This document shows, piece by piece, positions 54,518-64,000 of a DNA stretch of 64,000 bases (position 1 is its first letter; every line of letters starts with the position of its first letter). Under the pieces are notes generated by a model, which made no database searches, was not told where the DNA came from, and saw nothing but the letters and a program-made list of their open reading frames with translations. The translations under genes were made by a program, and so were the position numbers. Source of the stretch: Hemileia vastatrix (lineage: Eukaryota; Basidiomycota; Pucciniomycetes; Pucciniales; Zaghouaniaceae); NCBI GenBank assembly GCA_030280995.1, contig JASXTE010000014.1, positions 6,090,156 to 6,154,155 on the forward strand. Reading direction: 5' to 3'.

Positions 54518-54559
54518 CACCACAGAAAATTTGGGGGGGTATTGCTAGCAATACCCCTC
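54518..54559 (+). repeat. terminal inverted repeat (left) with a 22-bp palindrome
   Basis: CACCACAGAAAATTTGGGGG, then GTATTGCTAGCAATAC flanked by GGG and CCC. It is about 70-75% identical to the left end of the 10.5-kb element. GTTGGAA/GTTGGGA repeats follow directly (54570-54615), as expected for CACTA subterminal sites. Confidence 0.88.
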
Positions 54560-55412
54560 ATTTAAAAATGTTGGGAAGTGGTTGGAAAGCTGTTGGAAGG
54601 CTGTTGGGAGTTCATTGTGAAACCAGATTTAAATTAATTGGACAAAGATTTGGTAATCAGTTAGACCTAGGTTCAACCAAACTCAATCACAGGTTTCTTG
54701 GAGCTTGGTGATTACTTTGATTTTGAGCTGAGCACAGATTGAGCAAAGCTTGAACATATCATTTAACATATCATAATATTCACTTTCCCATCTTGTGGAA
54801 AGCAAAATTTGATATTCGTTCTAAGAATATCTACATATATTTTCTTGCCAAGTTGGTAACAGAAGGTTAAACTGTAGTATCTCAATTATTACACTAGACT
54901 ACATAGATATTTGATAAAACATACAATTCAAATCAATTTTAATATTATTGAGATCACCATAAGTGTCTTTCCAAAGACTTACAAAAAGTATGTTAGTATC
55001 AAGATATCGTTCTAGGTAGTAGTTTCAATTTGGATTTTGAACTGACATCTAAAGCATTTTACTATTAGACAGAAACATAAATAAGTGTAATAAGAGTGAA
55101 ATTATTCTATTTTGTGATTATAATGTAACAATAATGCACATTTTTATTGAGAAAATTTTTCTTCCTCCACAAACCAAAATTTACTCTATAGGCTCAAGAT
55201 TTATTTTTAAGACATATTATTCATTTCAGTTATCATTGATTTACTTCCAATATTTATTAAAAAGATAATAATAATACATGTGAAAGAATTATGAGCTTAG
55301 CATAGCATATGCTAAAAAGTTATTTTGTCGTTTTATTCAAAACTGATTCTTCATTTTTTGCTTCAATTCATCTTTTAACAACCACTATCTTCAGATACTA
55401 TTCTTACTTAAT
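54560..55412. other. subterminal region of the Plavaka-type element
   Basis: Short direct repeats of GTTGG(A/G)A(A/G) occur near the end, then AT-rich sequence up to the helicase start. No frame is supported. It should contain the promoter of the gene at 55413. Confidence 0.55.
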
Positions 55413-57841
55413 ATGTCAAGTCTCAGATGTGTTGGACAGTTCTCAATAACAATCGATCAAATTTATATGAATGTAATTTCAAGATTTCAAAACTCACCGA
55501 CCCCCACGATTTTACAGCGAGGCCATTCGAATGTTCATATTTTTGGACTATTTGAAGAAAGAAAACCAACCCTTGTTGGTAATCTTTCTCAAGTGCAGAG
55601 TCAGCACATTGGACCACTATTGGGTGACATTGGCTCTGGATCTCACCATTTAAACCAAAGAAGTGCCTTGAATCCTATGAAGCCTTTCTATTTTCATGCT
55701 TACTTGGTTCCAGTTTTTGGTAATCAGTATCAACTTTGGGGATGCCTCTTTTCTTCAAGTACACTAATCAGTCTTGCTAAAGAAGCATTTTCTTCTGCAC
55801 AAATCGATTTATGTCCAATCCTGAACTACGACTCCACTATCTTTTTTAATATCCCGCATGTAATTTTTGAAGGCTCTTTCAAAATATCTCAGAGTACTCA
55901 AGATTGGAAAGCTGATCAACTTATCCGAGGAATCAAAACAGTTCTCAAAACACATCAACTTCAAGCAATAAATTTTATGATTGACAATGAACAAATGTTA
56001 AAGGAAAAGTTGGATATCATGTGGAGGCACCAGGACAACCATTGGCTTAGAACTGGATTCGATGACTATAAAGATCAGTTTCCTAACAATCAATTGCCGC
56101 CTGAAGGAAACGGGTCAATACTTGCTGATGATATGGGTTTGGGAAAGACACTTTCAACTCTTTCTCTTATAAGTGCAACTCAAGGTGAAGCAAGACAATT
56201 CCAGGTATCAGAAAATCAAGAAGGTATTAATCGGAGTTCAGCCACACTGATTATATGCCCCCTGGCAACACTATCGAATTGGATCAATGAAATAAGTGTG
56301 CACTTTGAAGATAATGCACTTCCTTTCAAGGTTCTTTATGGGAAGGATTGTCAAAATACTAATGTCAATGAGCTACAGGACACTGCTATTGTTTTAACGA
56401 CCTACTAAATAGCTAGCCCAACGATGTCAAAAAATCAAAGCCAAAAAAAGATACCGGTGACTCAAATGCTCTTTTGGTATAGAGTTGTTTTAGATGAAGC
56501 TCAGTTAGTGCCCATTTCTATATCTAAAACTTAAAACTTAATTTTTATTATCAATTTTTATAAATATTCTTTTAGTTACATTAAAAATCCTTACTCGCAG
56601 AGGGCTCAAACAATATTTGACTTGGAATCCCAACACCGACTATGCTTGACTGGAACTCCACTTCAGAACAGGCCCACTGACCTTCAAAGTCTCATATTTT
56701 TTCTTAGAATCGAAAAGTGGCAAGAAGACTGGTTATGGAAGAATTTCCTTTTTCCAGGTTTGCAAAAAGGAAAGGCTAATTCTATTAAATCAATCAATCA
56801 CTTAATGAAAGTCATAAGCCTACGTAGAACAAAGGATGCAATTTTGTCTCTTCCAAAAAAGATTCAAAGGGGGATATCGGTTCAATTAGCAGATCCATGG
56901 AGGTCTAAACTTGATGTGCTTCAAGAAGGATTCACTGAGCGATATGGGCCCTCCAGAAGCACTGACTTCCCTTGGGACTCATCTGAGTTTCTAAGAGAGC
57001 TGATGATTTTAAGAAAATTCTGCAACCATCCAATCTACAAAAATCTGGATGAAACTCCAACTTTTGATTTCACCTGGCAGCATTCCGCAAAGATTTGTCA
57101 TCTTATAGGCCACTTAAAAAACTTTTTGTCTGGTGAAAGGGATATAAATTTTCCAAAAGCTGTTATATTCTCCAACTTTGCAGACTTTTTGCAGATGTAA
57201 GTGATTCTATAATGAATTGTTTTACAAAATTGTGTTGGCTTATTAAAAACAATTTTCTAATATTTCAAAATAGAATAAAAATGGCTTTAGATGACCACAA
57301 TATTAGGTATACCCAGCTTACGGGTGAACTCAGCCGGACAAAGCGAGACAAAAATATGCATGAATTCCATTTTAATAAAAATTGCCAAGTTTTGGTTGGA
57401 ACGATTCAGGCTGCAGGAGTGGGTATAGATCTCAGGTGTGCTCAAAATGTATATATAATGGTGAGCTCAATGTCTTTTATTTCATATTAAGAACAAAAAT
57501 ATTAAATTTTTTATATGTTCAATGTTGAAATAGGAGCCAAATTGGAATCCAGCAGTTGAGCAACAGGCTGTTGATCGGCTGTATAGAATGGGGCAGCAAA
57601 ATGAAGTAAATGTTTTGAATTATTTTGTACAAGGAAGTATAGAATTCAGCATGTATAAGATTCAAAGGAAAAAAATGGAGCTAACAATGTAAGCCAAATT
57701 TCATTTCTATAAATTTTAATGATAATAGTAATCATTAAAATTATGTTTTTGTTTTCAAGGCTAAGTGTCCCAAACAGTGGAAATGAGGAGTATGAGTGTG
57801 CAAACCTATTATTAAGGGAGTTTGTCAATCACTCACATTAG
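55413..57841 (+). pseudogene. SNF2/Rad5-like DNA-dependent ATPase in a transposon (one in-frame stop)
   Basis: Proposed exons are 55413-56503, 56576-57196, 57274-57460, 57534-57688 and 57760-57841. All introns are GT-AG, 71-78 bp, and the total is 711 codons plus stop. Motif I ILADDMGLGKTLS is at about residue 233, and LIICPLATLSNWINE follows. Splicing of 56504-56575 creates DEAH followed by YIKNPYSQRA. LCLTGTPLQNRPTDLQSL, ISLRRTKDAILSLPKK, FSNFADFLQ and the C-terminal motif EQQAVDRLYRMGQ complete both RecA lobes. The family translocates on DNA and remodels nucleosomes or repair complexes. The spacing between lobes is short and no RING is present, unlike Rad5/HLTF. Codon 332 is TAA (56406), probably from CAA. 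The gene may be inactive unless this is a sequencing error or strain variant. Confidence 0.85.
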
Positions 57842-63000: not shown

Positions 63001-63399
63001 ATTGCTAATTCAACAATTGAATTCTACTATGGAAAAGATAGCCAGTTTGGGCAAATTGATGATCTTTTCAGATCAAAGGAAGAGATTGATCAAATATATT
63101 TAATAGTAAGTCCTTTCAAAGAGCTCCGTCCAGAAGAAACATCAAAGGATCCCTATGAGCTTTTCCCACAAGTGCATTGTCGGTTAGTAAGAGTAGCCAA
63201 AGCAACTCAAATTGTGATTAAGAAAGATGCAATAATTGGACATGCAGCTACTGTCGAGCACAAAAAAGGAATGTTTGGAATCAAAGACGAGGTTGTCACT
63301 GCCATTGGACTGCAGACAGTAGTGAGTGAAAAAATTAATCAAATTTATTTTCTGTTGACTAACATCTTTGTGTTAATTTGGGATTCGGGAAATTTGTAG
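60021..63399 (+). CDS. Plavaka/tnp2-type (CMC superfamily) transposase, apparently intact
   Basis: Exons 60021-60230, 60301-62638 and 62705-63399 (introns 70 and 66 bp, GTAAGC…ATAG and GTATGT…CACAG) give 1080 residues. The N-terminus has a C-x-C-x4-C cluster (HVCQCQDLGC) followed by a His (KH), as in Plavaka proteins. A second cysteine group is CCPKC…CC near residue 166. The DDE-type core has YVDWFRPGGNRIGGHQKSVG (about 307), IPGPTEPTSEQLNHLLKPLV, GDIPAIRKLAGFSSHSAKMF, CSFCNIS and SIDVMHSHMLG (about 493). SGERVNHIL near 831 carries the likely catalytic Glu. A low-complexity Asp/Ser/Arg insert of about 150 residues separates the last two. It should bind the terminal repeats and cut the element out. 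The end may differ if a further intron (donor about 63330, acceptor 63400) is used. Confidence 0.85.
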
Positions 63400-63825
63400 G
63401 ATTGGTGATATTTGTAAATGGTGAAAGAAATAATTCAATGCTCGATTAAAAAATGCAATGCATCCAACTTACCTCATCATAAACCAGTGAACAATTACTT
63501 TGGTTGCTTTTATTGCGAGAGAACCCATGCTTTCAATGAGTCATTTTTATCTTAAATGTAAGAATGAAAGAAATAAAATCATGATAATGAGAAATATGAT
63601 AAAATTTTTACTTAATGAATGATCTTCTTGCTCATTCATCTACTATAAATAGTTTGACCTTCCAACTTTAGCTGATAGCTATATATTATTCACTTTATTT
63701 TTCGACAAGAGAACATACACGTTTACAAGACTATATACATAGTATCTTTTTTTACTTTAGCTTTGATAGGTATAAATTTTAACAACTGATTATTTTTATT
63801 TTATTTTATTTTATTACAGTTCATT
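63400..63825. other. spacer between transposase and the next frame
   Basis: AT-rich, no frame. It ends in TTTTATTTTATTTTATTACAG, a good splice acceptor context, just before the ATG at 63826, so an upstream non-coding exon is possible. Confidence 0.45.
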
Positions 63826-64000
63826 ATGGATGATAATTTTGAAGGGATGTCTGTTGACCCAACCGATTCTGATTGTTTTCCGCCTCAACATACTAATACT
63901 GGAAATACTCCTCCACCACCCTCTGCTGATCCACCTCCAGATGCATCTCAATCTGTACCACCTAATCCTAACCCACCACCTAATCCCAATCCAGGCCAAG
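63826..64000 (+). CDS. start of a proline-rich hypothetical protein (cut by window end)
   Basis: ATG at 63826 opens MDDNFEGMSVDPTDSDCFPP, then a Pro/Asn/Gln-rich run (PPPPSADPPPDASQ, NPNPPPNPNPGQ) open to the window end. It follows the transposase on the same strand, presumably within the same element. There is too little sequence to name a family. Confidence 0.45.
   Translation, partial: MDDNFEGMSVDPTDSDCFPPQHTNTGNTPPPPSADPPPDASQSVPPNPNPPPNPNPGQ

Follow-up and report, generated by a model that had tools for sequence, protein, structure and literature searches.

A large, probable EnSpm/CACTA-type transposon with SNF2 and TET/JBP genes in Hemileia vastatrix

Results

Main finding

We analysed a stretch of 64,000 nucleotides from Hemileia vastatrix (assembly GCA_030280995.1, contig JASXTE010000014.1, positions 6,090,156 to 6,154,155 of the forward strand; hereafter the window). 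From position 54518 onwards, the window probably holds the left portion of a DNA transposon of the EnSpm/CACTA type, large and apparently autonomous, in which an SNF2-family ATPase gene and a TET/JBP dioxygenase gene would form an anti-silencing kit. The structure of the element (left terminus, gene content and colinearity among copies) is strongly supported, and the function of the two enzymes is what we infer. The coordinates of all features are given in Table 1; those of the stretch read beyond the window (L021) were brought to the window scale by adding 63944 to the L021 position.

Table 1. Features of the element, of its continuation beyond the window and of related sequences in the window.
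Feature	Position	Strand	Basis or remarks
AAA, candidate left copy of the 3-bp target-site duplication	54515..54517	.	window sequence; flanks differ in other copies
Part of the element within the window	54518..64000	+	colinear with other copies to about 73800 (window scale)
Left terminus CACCACAGAAAATTTGGGGGGGTATTGCTAGCAATACCCC with internal 22-base palindrome	54518..54557	+	common boundary in 20/20 loci; genome matches to first 20 bases
SNF2-family ATPase gene, five exons (55413-56503, 56576-57196, 57274-57460, 57534-57688, 57760-57840)	55413..57840	+	domain matches, gene model, copy comparison
Convergent gene, two exons, intron ~58337-58263	57825..58946	-	gene model, copy comparison, homology
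Transposase, predicted 1,080 aa, exons ~60021-60230, 60301-62638, 62705-63399 (3' end of model uncertain)	60021..63399	+	PF02992, conserved residues
First exon of gene right of transposase	63826..64000	+	continues past the window to L021:1559 (65503 on window scale)
AT-rich element region, one pair of ~506-bp mutually inverted blocks, 13 matches to palindrome TTTYGATYRAAA	L021:1770-3294 (~65714-67238 on window scale)
Multi-exon gene without assigned function	~68686-71123 (window scale)	+	beyond the window
TET/JBP dioxygenase gene	~71923-73190 (window scale)	-	PF20515, beyond the window
Complete non-autonomous EnSpm-type relative, 10,480 bp, CACCACGGGAAATCT ends, TCA on both sides	1674-12153		within the window
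Further sequence resembling this type of terminus, CACCACCCAATATTTGGGG...TTGCTAGC	41621-41675		inside long frame ending at 41684
MITE-like relative, 226 bp, CAC..GTG ends, TGCTAGC motifs, AAA on both sides	42221-42446		within the window

Left terminus and copies of the element

The left terminus CACCACAGAAAATTTGGGGGGG begins at 54518 and is overlapped by a perfect 22-base palindrome (GGGGTATTGCTAGCAATACCCC). A search for the SNF2 gene in the assembly that contains the window (747.6 Mb, on which all genome-wide counts were made) gave 2,034 first-look candidates; 40 were scored, all of them full-length and listed at 100%, and 20 loci were fetched. In all 20 loci, the window copy counted, the base corresponding to 54518 is the point where unrelated flanking sequence gives way to the element. 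The first 20 bases of the terminus, with at most one mismatch, had 901 + 827 = 1,728 matches in the genome, and the reversed control had 0 + 0. Because the control was empty and every locus switches at the same base, these matches exceed chance, and 54518, where the initial annotation had seen a CACTA-like terminus, is a genuine insertion boundary. Locus L010 has one additional G in a G-run, and the display of its boundary is offset by one base.

We read nine further copies over approximately 19.8 kb each, starting about 500 bp before the left terminus. In seven, colinearity with the window copy extended through 19.2-19.3 kb, up to where the read stretch stops, at 99.75-99.85% identity, and the element therefore measures at least 19.2 kb from its left terminus. 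Gene order in the colinear copies is SNF2, transposase and TET, and the flanks are unrelated. As for the other two copies, L026 is colinear apart from an insertion of about 2.6 kb, its read stretch stopping short of the TET gene, and in L036 colinearity stops after 7.0 kb, inside the transposase gene, where other sequence follows. The initial annotation had proposed a search for other copies with SNF2 and transposase genes between shared termini, and on the side of the left terminus they exist. It had seen no second terminus between 54518 and 64000 either, and this stood over a longer range: the window copy lacks GTGGTG throughout the 19,328 bp rightward of 54518, where TGCTAGCA occurs a single time, as the left end itself. 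A terminus between 57841 and 60021, which would have refuted the element as first described, did not appear.

A sequence tag of the SNF2 gene (at most two mismatches) matched the genome 1,473 times (controls 0). Co-location was counted for the left terminus and this tag, using the zero-mismatch entries listed on contigs C2, C18 and C19. For 60 of the 76 listed tags, a listed left terminus of matching orientation lay no more than 6 kb away; the spacing was exactly 2,122 bp, as in the window, for 40 of the 76, and 2,031-2,133 bp for 58. Conversely, 60 of 88 listed left termini were paired with a listed tag, so that copies do not consistently lack the SNF2 gene, a finding that would have spoken against the element as first described. 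If all tagged copies were full length, they would make up about 4% of the assembly, which is an upper-side estimate and not a measurement.

The eight colinear copies (the window copy and the seven others, leaving out L026 and L036) differ pairwise by 0.10-0.22%. The mean difference is 0.16%, which marks a very recent burst of multiplication. Changes from C to T and from G to A account for 53 of the 121 changes scored among these copies. With over a thousand SNF2-bearing loci and such young copies among those compared, the element is visibly successful.

The SNF2 ATPase gene

The four introns of the SNF2 gene are 71-77 nt long. PF00176 and PF00271 were the sole domains above the curated cut-off, and RING and HIRAN were not detected, when the window gene was scanned in three pieces that covered all but the last two exons. 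The frame is open over 711 codons in 19 of the 20 loci. The open copy L002 has all three motifs expected of an active SNF2 ATPase: Walker A (DDMGLGKT), a DEAH box and motif VI (RLYRMGQ).

With the open 711-aa protein of another copy as query, a protein search returned 7,927 matches, of which the best 120 were considered. The first 33 of these (P0013-P0045) were Puccinia proteins (P. triticina, P. graminis and P. striiformis), none with RING or HIRAN in its Pfam list, and the best of them, P0013, was 44% identical over the full length. Scores continue without a break past this block (250, then 248 bits): the next matches are RAD5B of plants, HLTF of animals and SNF2 proteins of other fungi, and P0089 and P0122, also from Puccinia, stand lower among the best 120. 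As no score gap follows the Puccinia matches, the separation of the clade rests on trees. In a careful tree of 53 rows, a branch with support 100/100 set the query, together with 34 Puccinia proteins, apart from the 18 remaining SNF2 proteins, and a quick tree of all 68 rows, including P0122 and 14 outside rows left out of the careful one, gave the same split. The initial annotation had looked to such a tree for a clade apart from host Rad5/Rad16: a separate clade was obtained, against outside rows that comprised RAD5B of plants, HLTF of animals and SNF2 proteins of other fungi, the host's own Rad5/Rad16 not being among them.

By these comparisons the protein belongs to a rust-type, multi-copy SNF2 lineage. 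An assignment as Rad5/HLTF orthologue was rejected, given the separate clade and the RING and HIRAN domains that were not detected in the scanned exons. For wheat rusts, a 2.56-fold enrichment of SNF2 N-terminal domains (Q 5.77e-12) has been described and discussed as an adaptation of gene regulation and host interaction (PMC5295586). The many Puccinia SNF2 paralogues without RING/HIRAN are possibly mobile-element genes annotated as host genes, and part of that enrichment may be mobile DNA.

Transposase

The transposase carries the tnp2 domain (PF02992, E=2.4e-15) in a frame that is open in the window copy, and the intact-looking tnp2 transposase of the initial annotation is thereby confirmed. 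Across 12 aligned proteins, D336, C355 and C358 are invariant and D240 is nearly so (numbering of the open reading frame 60301-62643); the final acidic residue was identified by visual inspection, most aligned rows stopping before it. The second D followed by C(2)C is the arrangement of EnSpm/CACTA transposases. The 781-aa frame is open in 8 of the 10 copies, is 771 aa long in L026 and is interrupted in L036. No close relative was found among the viral contigs searched.

The TET/JBP gene

A TET/JBP gene could not be noticed in the earlier reading, because it lies past position 64000. Its product matches the TET-like 2OG-Fe(II) oxygenase domain PF20515 (E=2.7e-22), and an HxD motif is visible in the sequence. 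The fetched stretch reaches the gene in 8 of the 10 copies, and in each of these the 247-aa frame is open and a TET tag was found. Judged by the left end and the colinear copies, the gene lies inside the element, which is thus a TET-bearing DNA transposon. The SNF2 and TET genes are separate, about 14 kb apart and on opposite strands, and so do not form a fusion of the JBP2 type. A search of PDB sequences with the TET protein gave a chance match alone (E=0.83). A motif like CCTGTATGCTTTCAGCAAGTACGAGA occurs three times upstream of the TET gene (L021:9440-9780).

Classification and the right side of the element

The left end begins with CACCAC, confirmed at base level, which fits the left half of the CAC..GTG ends of EnSpm/CACTA elements, the right end not having been reached. 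The complementary terminus had been expected by extension past 64000, and none was reached within 9.8 kb. Three pattern searches for the right terminus gave 554 + 476 (controls 0/0), 766 + 693 (controls 20/16) and 1859 + 1855 matches (controls 0/0); the first two returned mostly left ends, and the third also returned ends of a related family. Among the 100 places listed in each search, no partner at a constant distance from left ends was seen. A right end of the type of the related family was rejected, as the listed distances did not fit.

By its transposase and left end, the element is best read as EnSpm/CACTA-type, for which the proof by terminal inverted repeats (TIR) or target-site duplication (TSD) would require the right end. 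The initial label, Plavaka/CACTA-type, holds in its second half. Rust elements whose transposases resemble that of Plavaka, and which have CAC..GTG ends and TSDs of 3 bp, have been assigned to EnSpm families, and Plavaka elements (PlavakaA/PlavakaB) are described as ending in TGT..ACA or CATCA..TGATG (Kojima 2025, PMC12730594). We rejected Plavaka on the terminus, the left end here being CACCACAGAAAATT, and preferred EnSpm because a CAC..GTG-type terminus is its mark in these published criteria.

Paralogous pair and other features

A further frame past the transposase had been annotated; it starts at about 63826 and proved to be the first exon of a gene that continues past the window. Its product is homologous to that of the convergent gene, with 22% identity across 281 aligned positions (E=2e-13), and a paralogue therefore lies on either side of the transposase. 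In the right paralogue, the long exon is open in 7 of 10 copies (not in L030, L034 and L036). A protein-database search with the pair gave a single match, a 100% identical fragment, and a search of PDB sequences gave none. The AT-rich region with its 13 palindromes is possibly a binding-site array.

GC content is low in the window (25-40% per 2 kb), which fits a rust host, as do the protein relatives and the published occurrence of such elements. The non-autonomous relative at its left side is built mostly from a unit of about 610 bp repeated in tandem. Ends of its family are numerous in the genome, and several of these are paired 7-31 kb apart on contig C2.

Discussion

The gene content of the element suggests how it may have multiplied. 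On copies of the element, the SNF2 protein would spend ATP on shifting or removing nucleosomes or on opening silenced DNA, and the TET/JBP protein would then oxidise methylated cytosine. Jointly, the two would maintain transcription of the element and leave its ends accessible to the transposase. TET/JBP genes are reported in rust DNA transposons, including EnSpm elements with CAC..GTG ends, and an anti-silencing role has been proposed for them (PMC12730594). In the rust Austropuccinia psidii, younger transposable elements are described as more CpG-methylated (PMC12774611). Trypanosome JBP2 is reported to join a TET/JBP-type hydroxylase and an SWI2/SNF2 domain in a single protein (PMC11065753). 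A Rad5/Rad8-like motor would also fit a methylation pathway, because the methylation-maintenance enzyme of Basidiomycetes, DNMT5, has an SNF2 domain of its own that is related to Rad8 (PMC13297926). As a wider and tentative proposal, which we hold to be possible rather than probable, a split, JBP2-like module of SNF2 and TET/JBP proteins that targets its own silenced copies may have driven bursts of thousands of copies in the giant genomes of rusts, and the SNF2 expansion in wheat rusts may be largely transposon cargo.

Several observations weigh against reading the element as autonomous and equipped against silencing. Its TIR, its TSD and its full length all depend on the right end that was not reached. 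The 20 loci compared are those with the best scores, a choice that favours intact copies, and open frames in near-identical copies say little on selection, the variants among the eight copies being too few (3 non-synonymous, 3 synonymous and 1 stop in the SNF2 gene; 8 non-synonymous and 2 synonymous in the transposase). Two genes of the initial annotation are present and broken in the window copy: the spliced SNF2 gene, confirmed in its five exons and two domains, has a premature in-frame stop after residue 331, before the DEAH box, and the convergent gene also has an in-frame stop, its long exon being open in eight of the ten copies, with the window copy and L034 as the exceptions. On the three contigs, 16 of the 76 listed tags had no listed terminus within 6 kb, and 28 of the 88 listed termini no listed tag within that distance; three of the 16 tags have a variant terminus at 2,127, 2,122 and 2,387 bp in the lists from the right-terminus pattern searches, and the 28 termini may be deletion derivatives or copies with changed tags. 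Several non-rust fungal SNF2 relatives likewise have no RING/HIRAN, and this trait is therefore not peculiar to the element. Finally, a DNA-binding helper might bind near the left end, and short repeats in the first 895 bp of the element were fewer than in shuffles.

Some of these observations fit other readings of the SNF2 gene. Large transposons carry passengers, and the termini without a tag, as well as the broken window copy, are what one would see if the gene had been captured long ago and travelled without helping the element. The full-length frame in 19 of the 20 loci points the other way, though the copies are young; a weaker argument of the same kind is P0013, which may be a transposon gene or a host gene and at 44% identity over its full length shows that the lineage stayed coding. 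As possible host genes, the Puccinia relatives say less about conservation within transposons. We consider a mere passenger unlikely, on this account slightly less so. We would give no better prospects to a service in transposition itself, in which the protein would be a Rad5-like DNA translocase for strand separation, repair of the excision gap or fork handling. Rad5 acts at stalled forks, the best solved relative of the protein by sequence is yeast RAD5 (E=6.4e-48), and many of the relatives outside rusts are RAD5B and HLTF proteins; yet the RING/HIRAN of the RAD5B/HLTF matches are not in the rust Pfam lists and were not detected in the scanned exons of the window gene, and residence in one element with a TET/JBP gene points to silencing.

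It is very improbable that the SNF2 and transposase genes belong to two abutting transposons, nested or neighbouring, even in a window rich in transposon remains and with a right end not reached. The same order and spacing recur in seven of nine other insertions with unrelated flanks, the constant tag-to-terminus spacing extends to 58 of the 76 listed tags, and no GTGGTG or second terminus motif lies inside the 19,328 bp. This reading is already largely refuted; what remains of it is a composite that moves as one unit, which would be functionally equivalent.

If the SNF2 motor joins the function of the TET/JBP enzyme, the transposon with its anti-silencing kit would be a self-contained system against chromatin and methylation silencing. 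One genome offers many near-identical insertions of it, with and without intact helper genes, and these let the relief of silencing by element-encoded enzymes be asked from existing long-read methylation data.

Comparison with known systems

The element shares its superfamily and a CAC-type end with the plant En/Spm (CACTA) transposons, which also comprise a large autonomous element plus non-autonomous relatives. Plant En/Spm elements carry TnpA and TnpD, and to our knowledge no SNF2 or TET gene; by analogy, the paralogous pair may fill the DNA-binding job of TnpA. Like Plavaka, the element has a tnp2-type transposase in which two D residues and the C(2)C are conserved, but it begins with CACCAC instead. 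With Rad5, HLTF and RAD5B, its SNF2 protein has the ATPase core in common, and differs by the undetected RING/HIRAN and the separate clade. The pairing of a TET/JBP-type oxygenase with an SWI2/SNF2 ATPase resembles trypanosome JBP2, which is described as one host protein with thymidine as substrate, whereas two separate transposon genes are found here (PMC11065753). VANC of the Arabidopsis VANDAL transposons is likewise element-encoded; it is presented as a sequence-specific anti-silencing protein, a counter-silencing factor, whereas the proteins here are an SNF2 ATPase and an oxygenase that would take such a role (PMC10398659).

We found no transposon with SNF2 and a tnp2-type transposase in the open-licence literature at the level of titles and abstract starts, the supplementary data of PMC12730594 not being covered. 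The closest systems are the TET+ EnSpm families of rust fungi described in that paper (Kojima 2025, PMC12730594), which are alike in the rust-type host, the Plavaka-like but EnSpm-classed transposase, the CAC-type terminus and the TET/JBP gene. SNF2 never occurs in its main text, its supplementary tables being outside our scope, and those families may carry SNF2 genes that went unremarked; the present element, whose right end was not reached, carries an SNF2 gene. Transposon-borne TET/JBP genes are thus already known in fungi, and the addition of SNF2 appears to be the new part.

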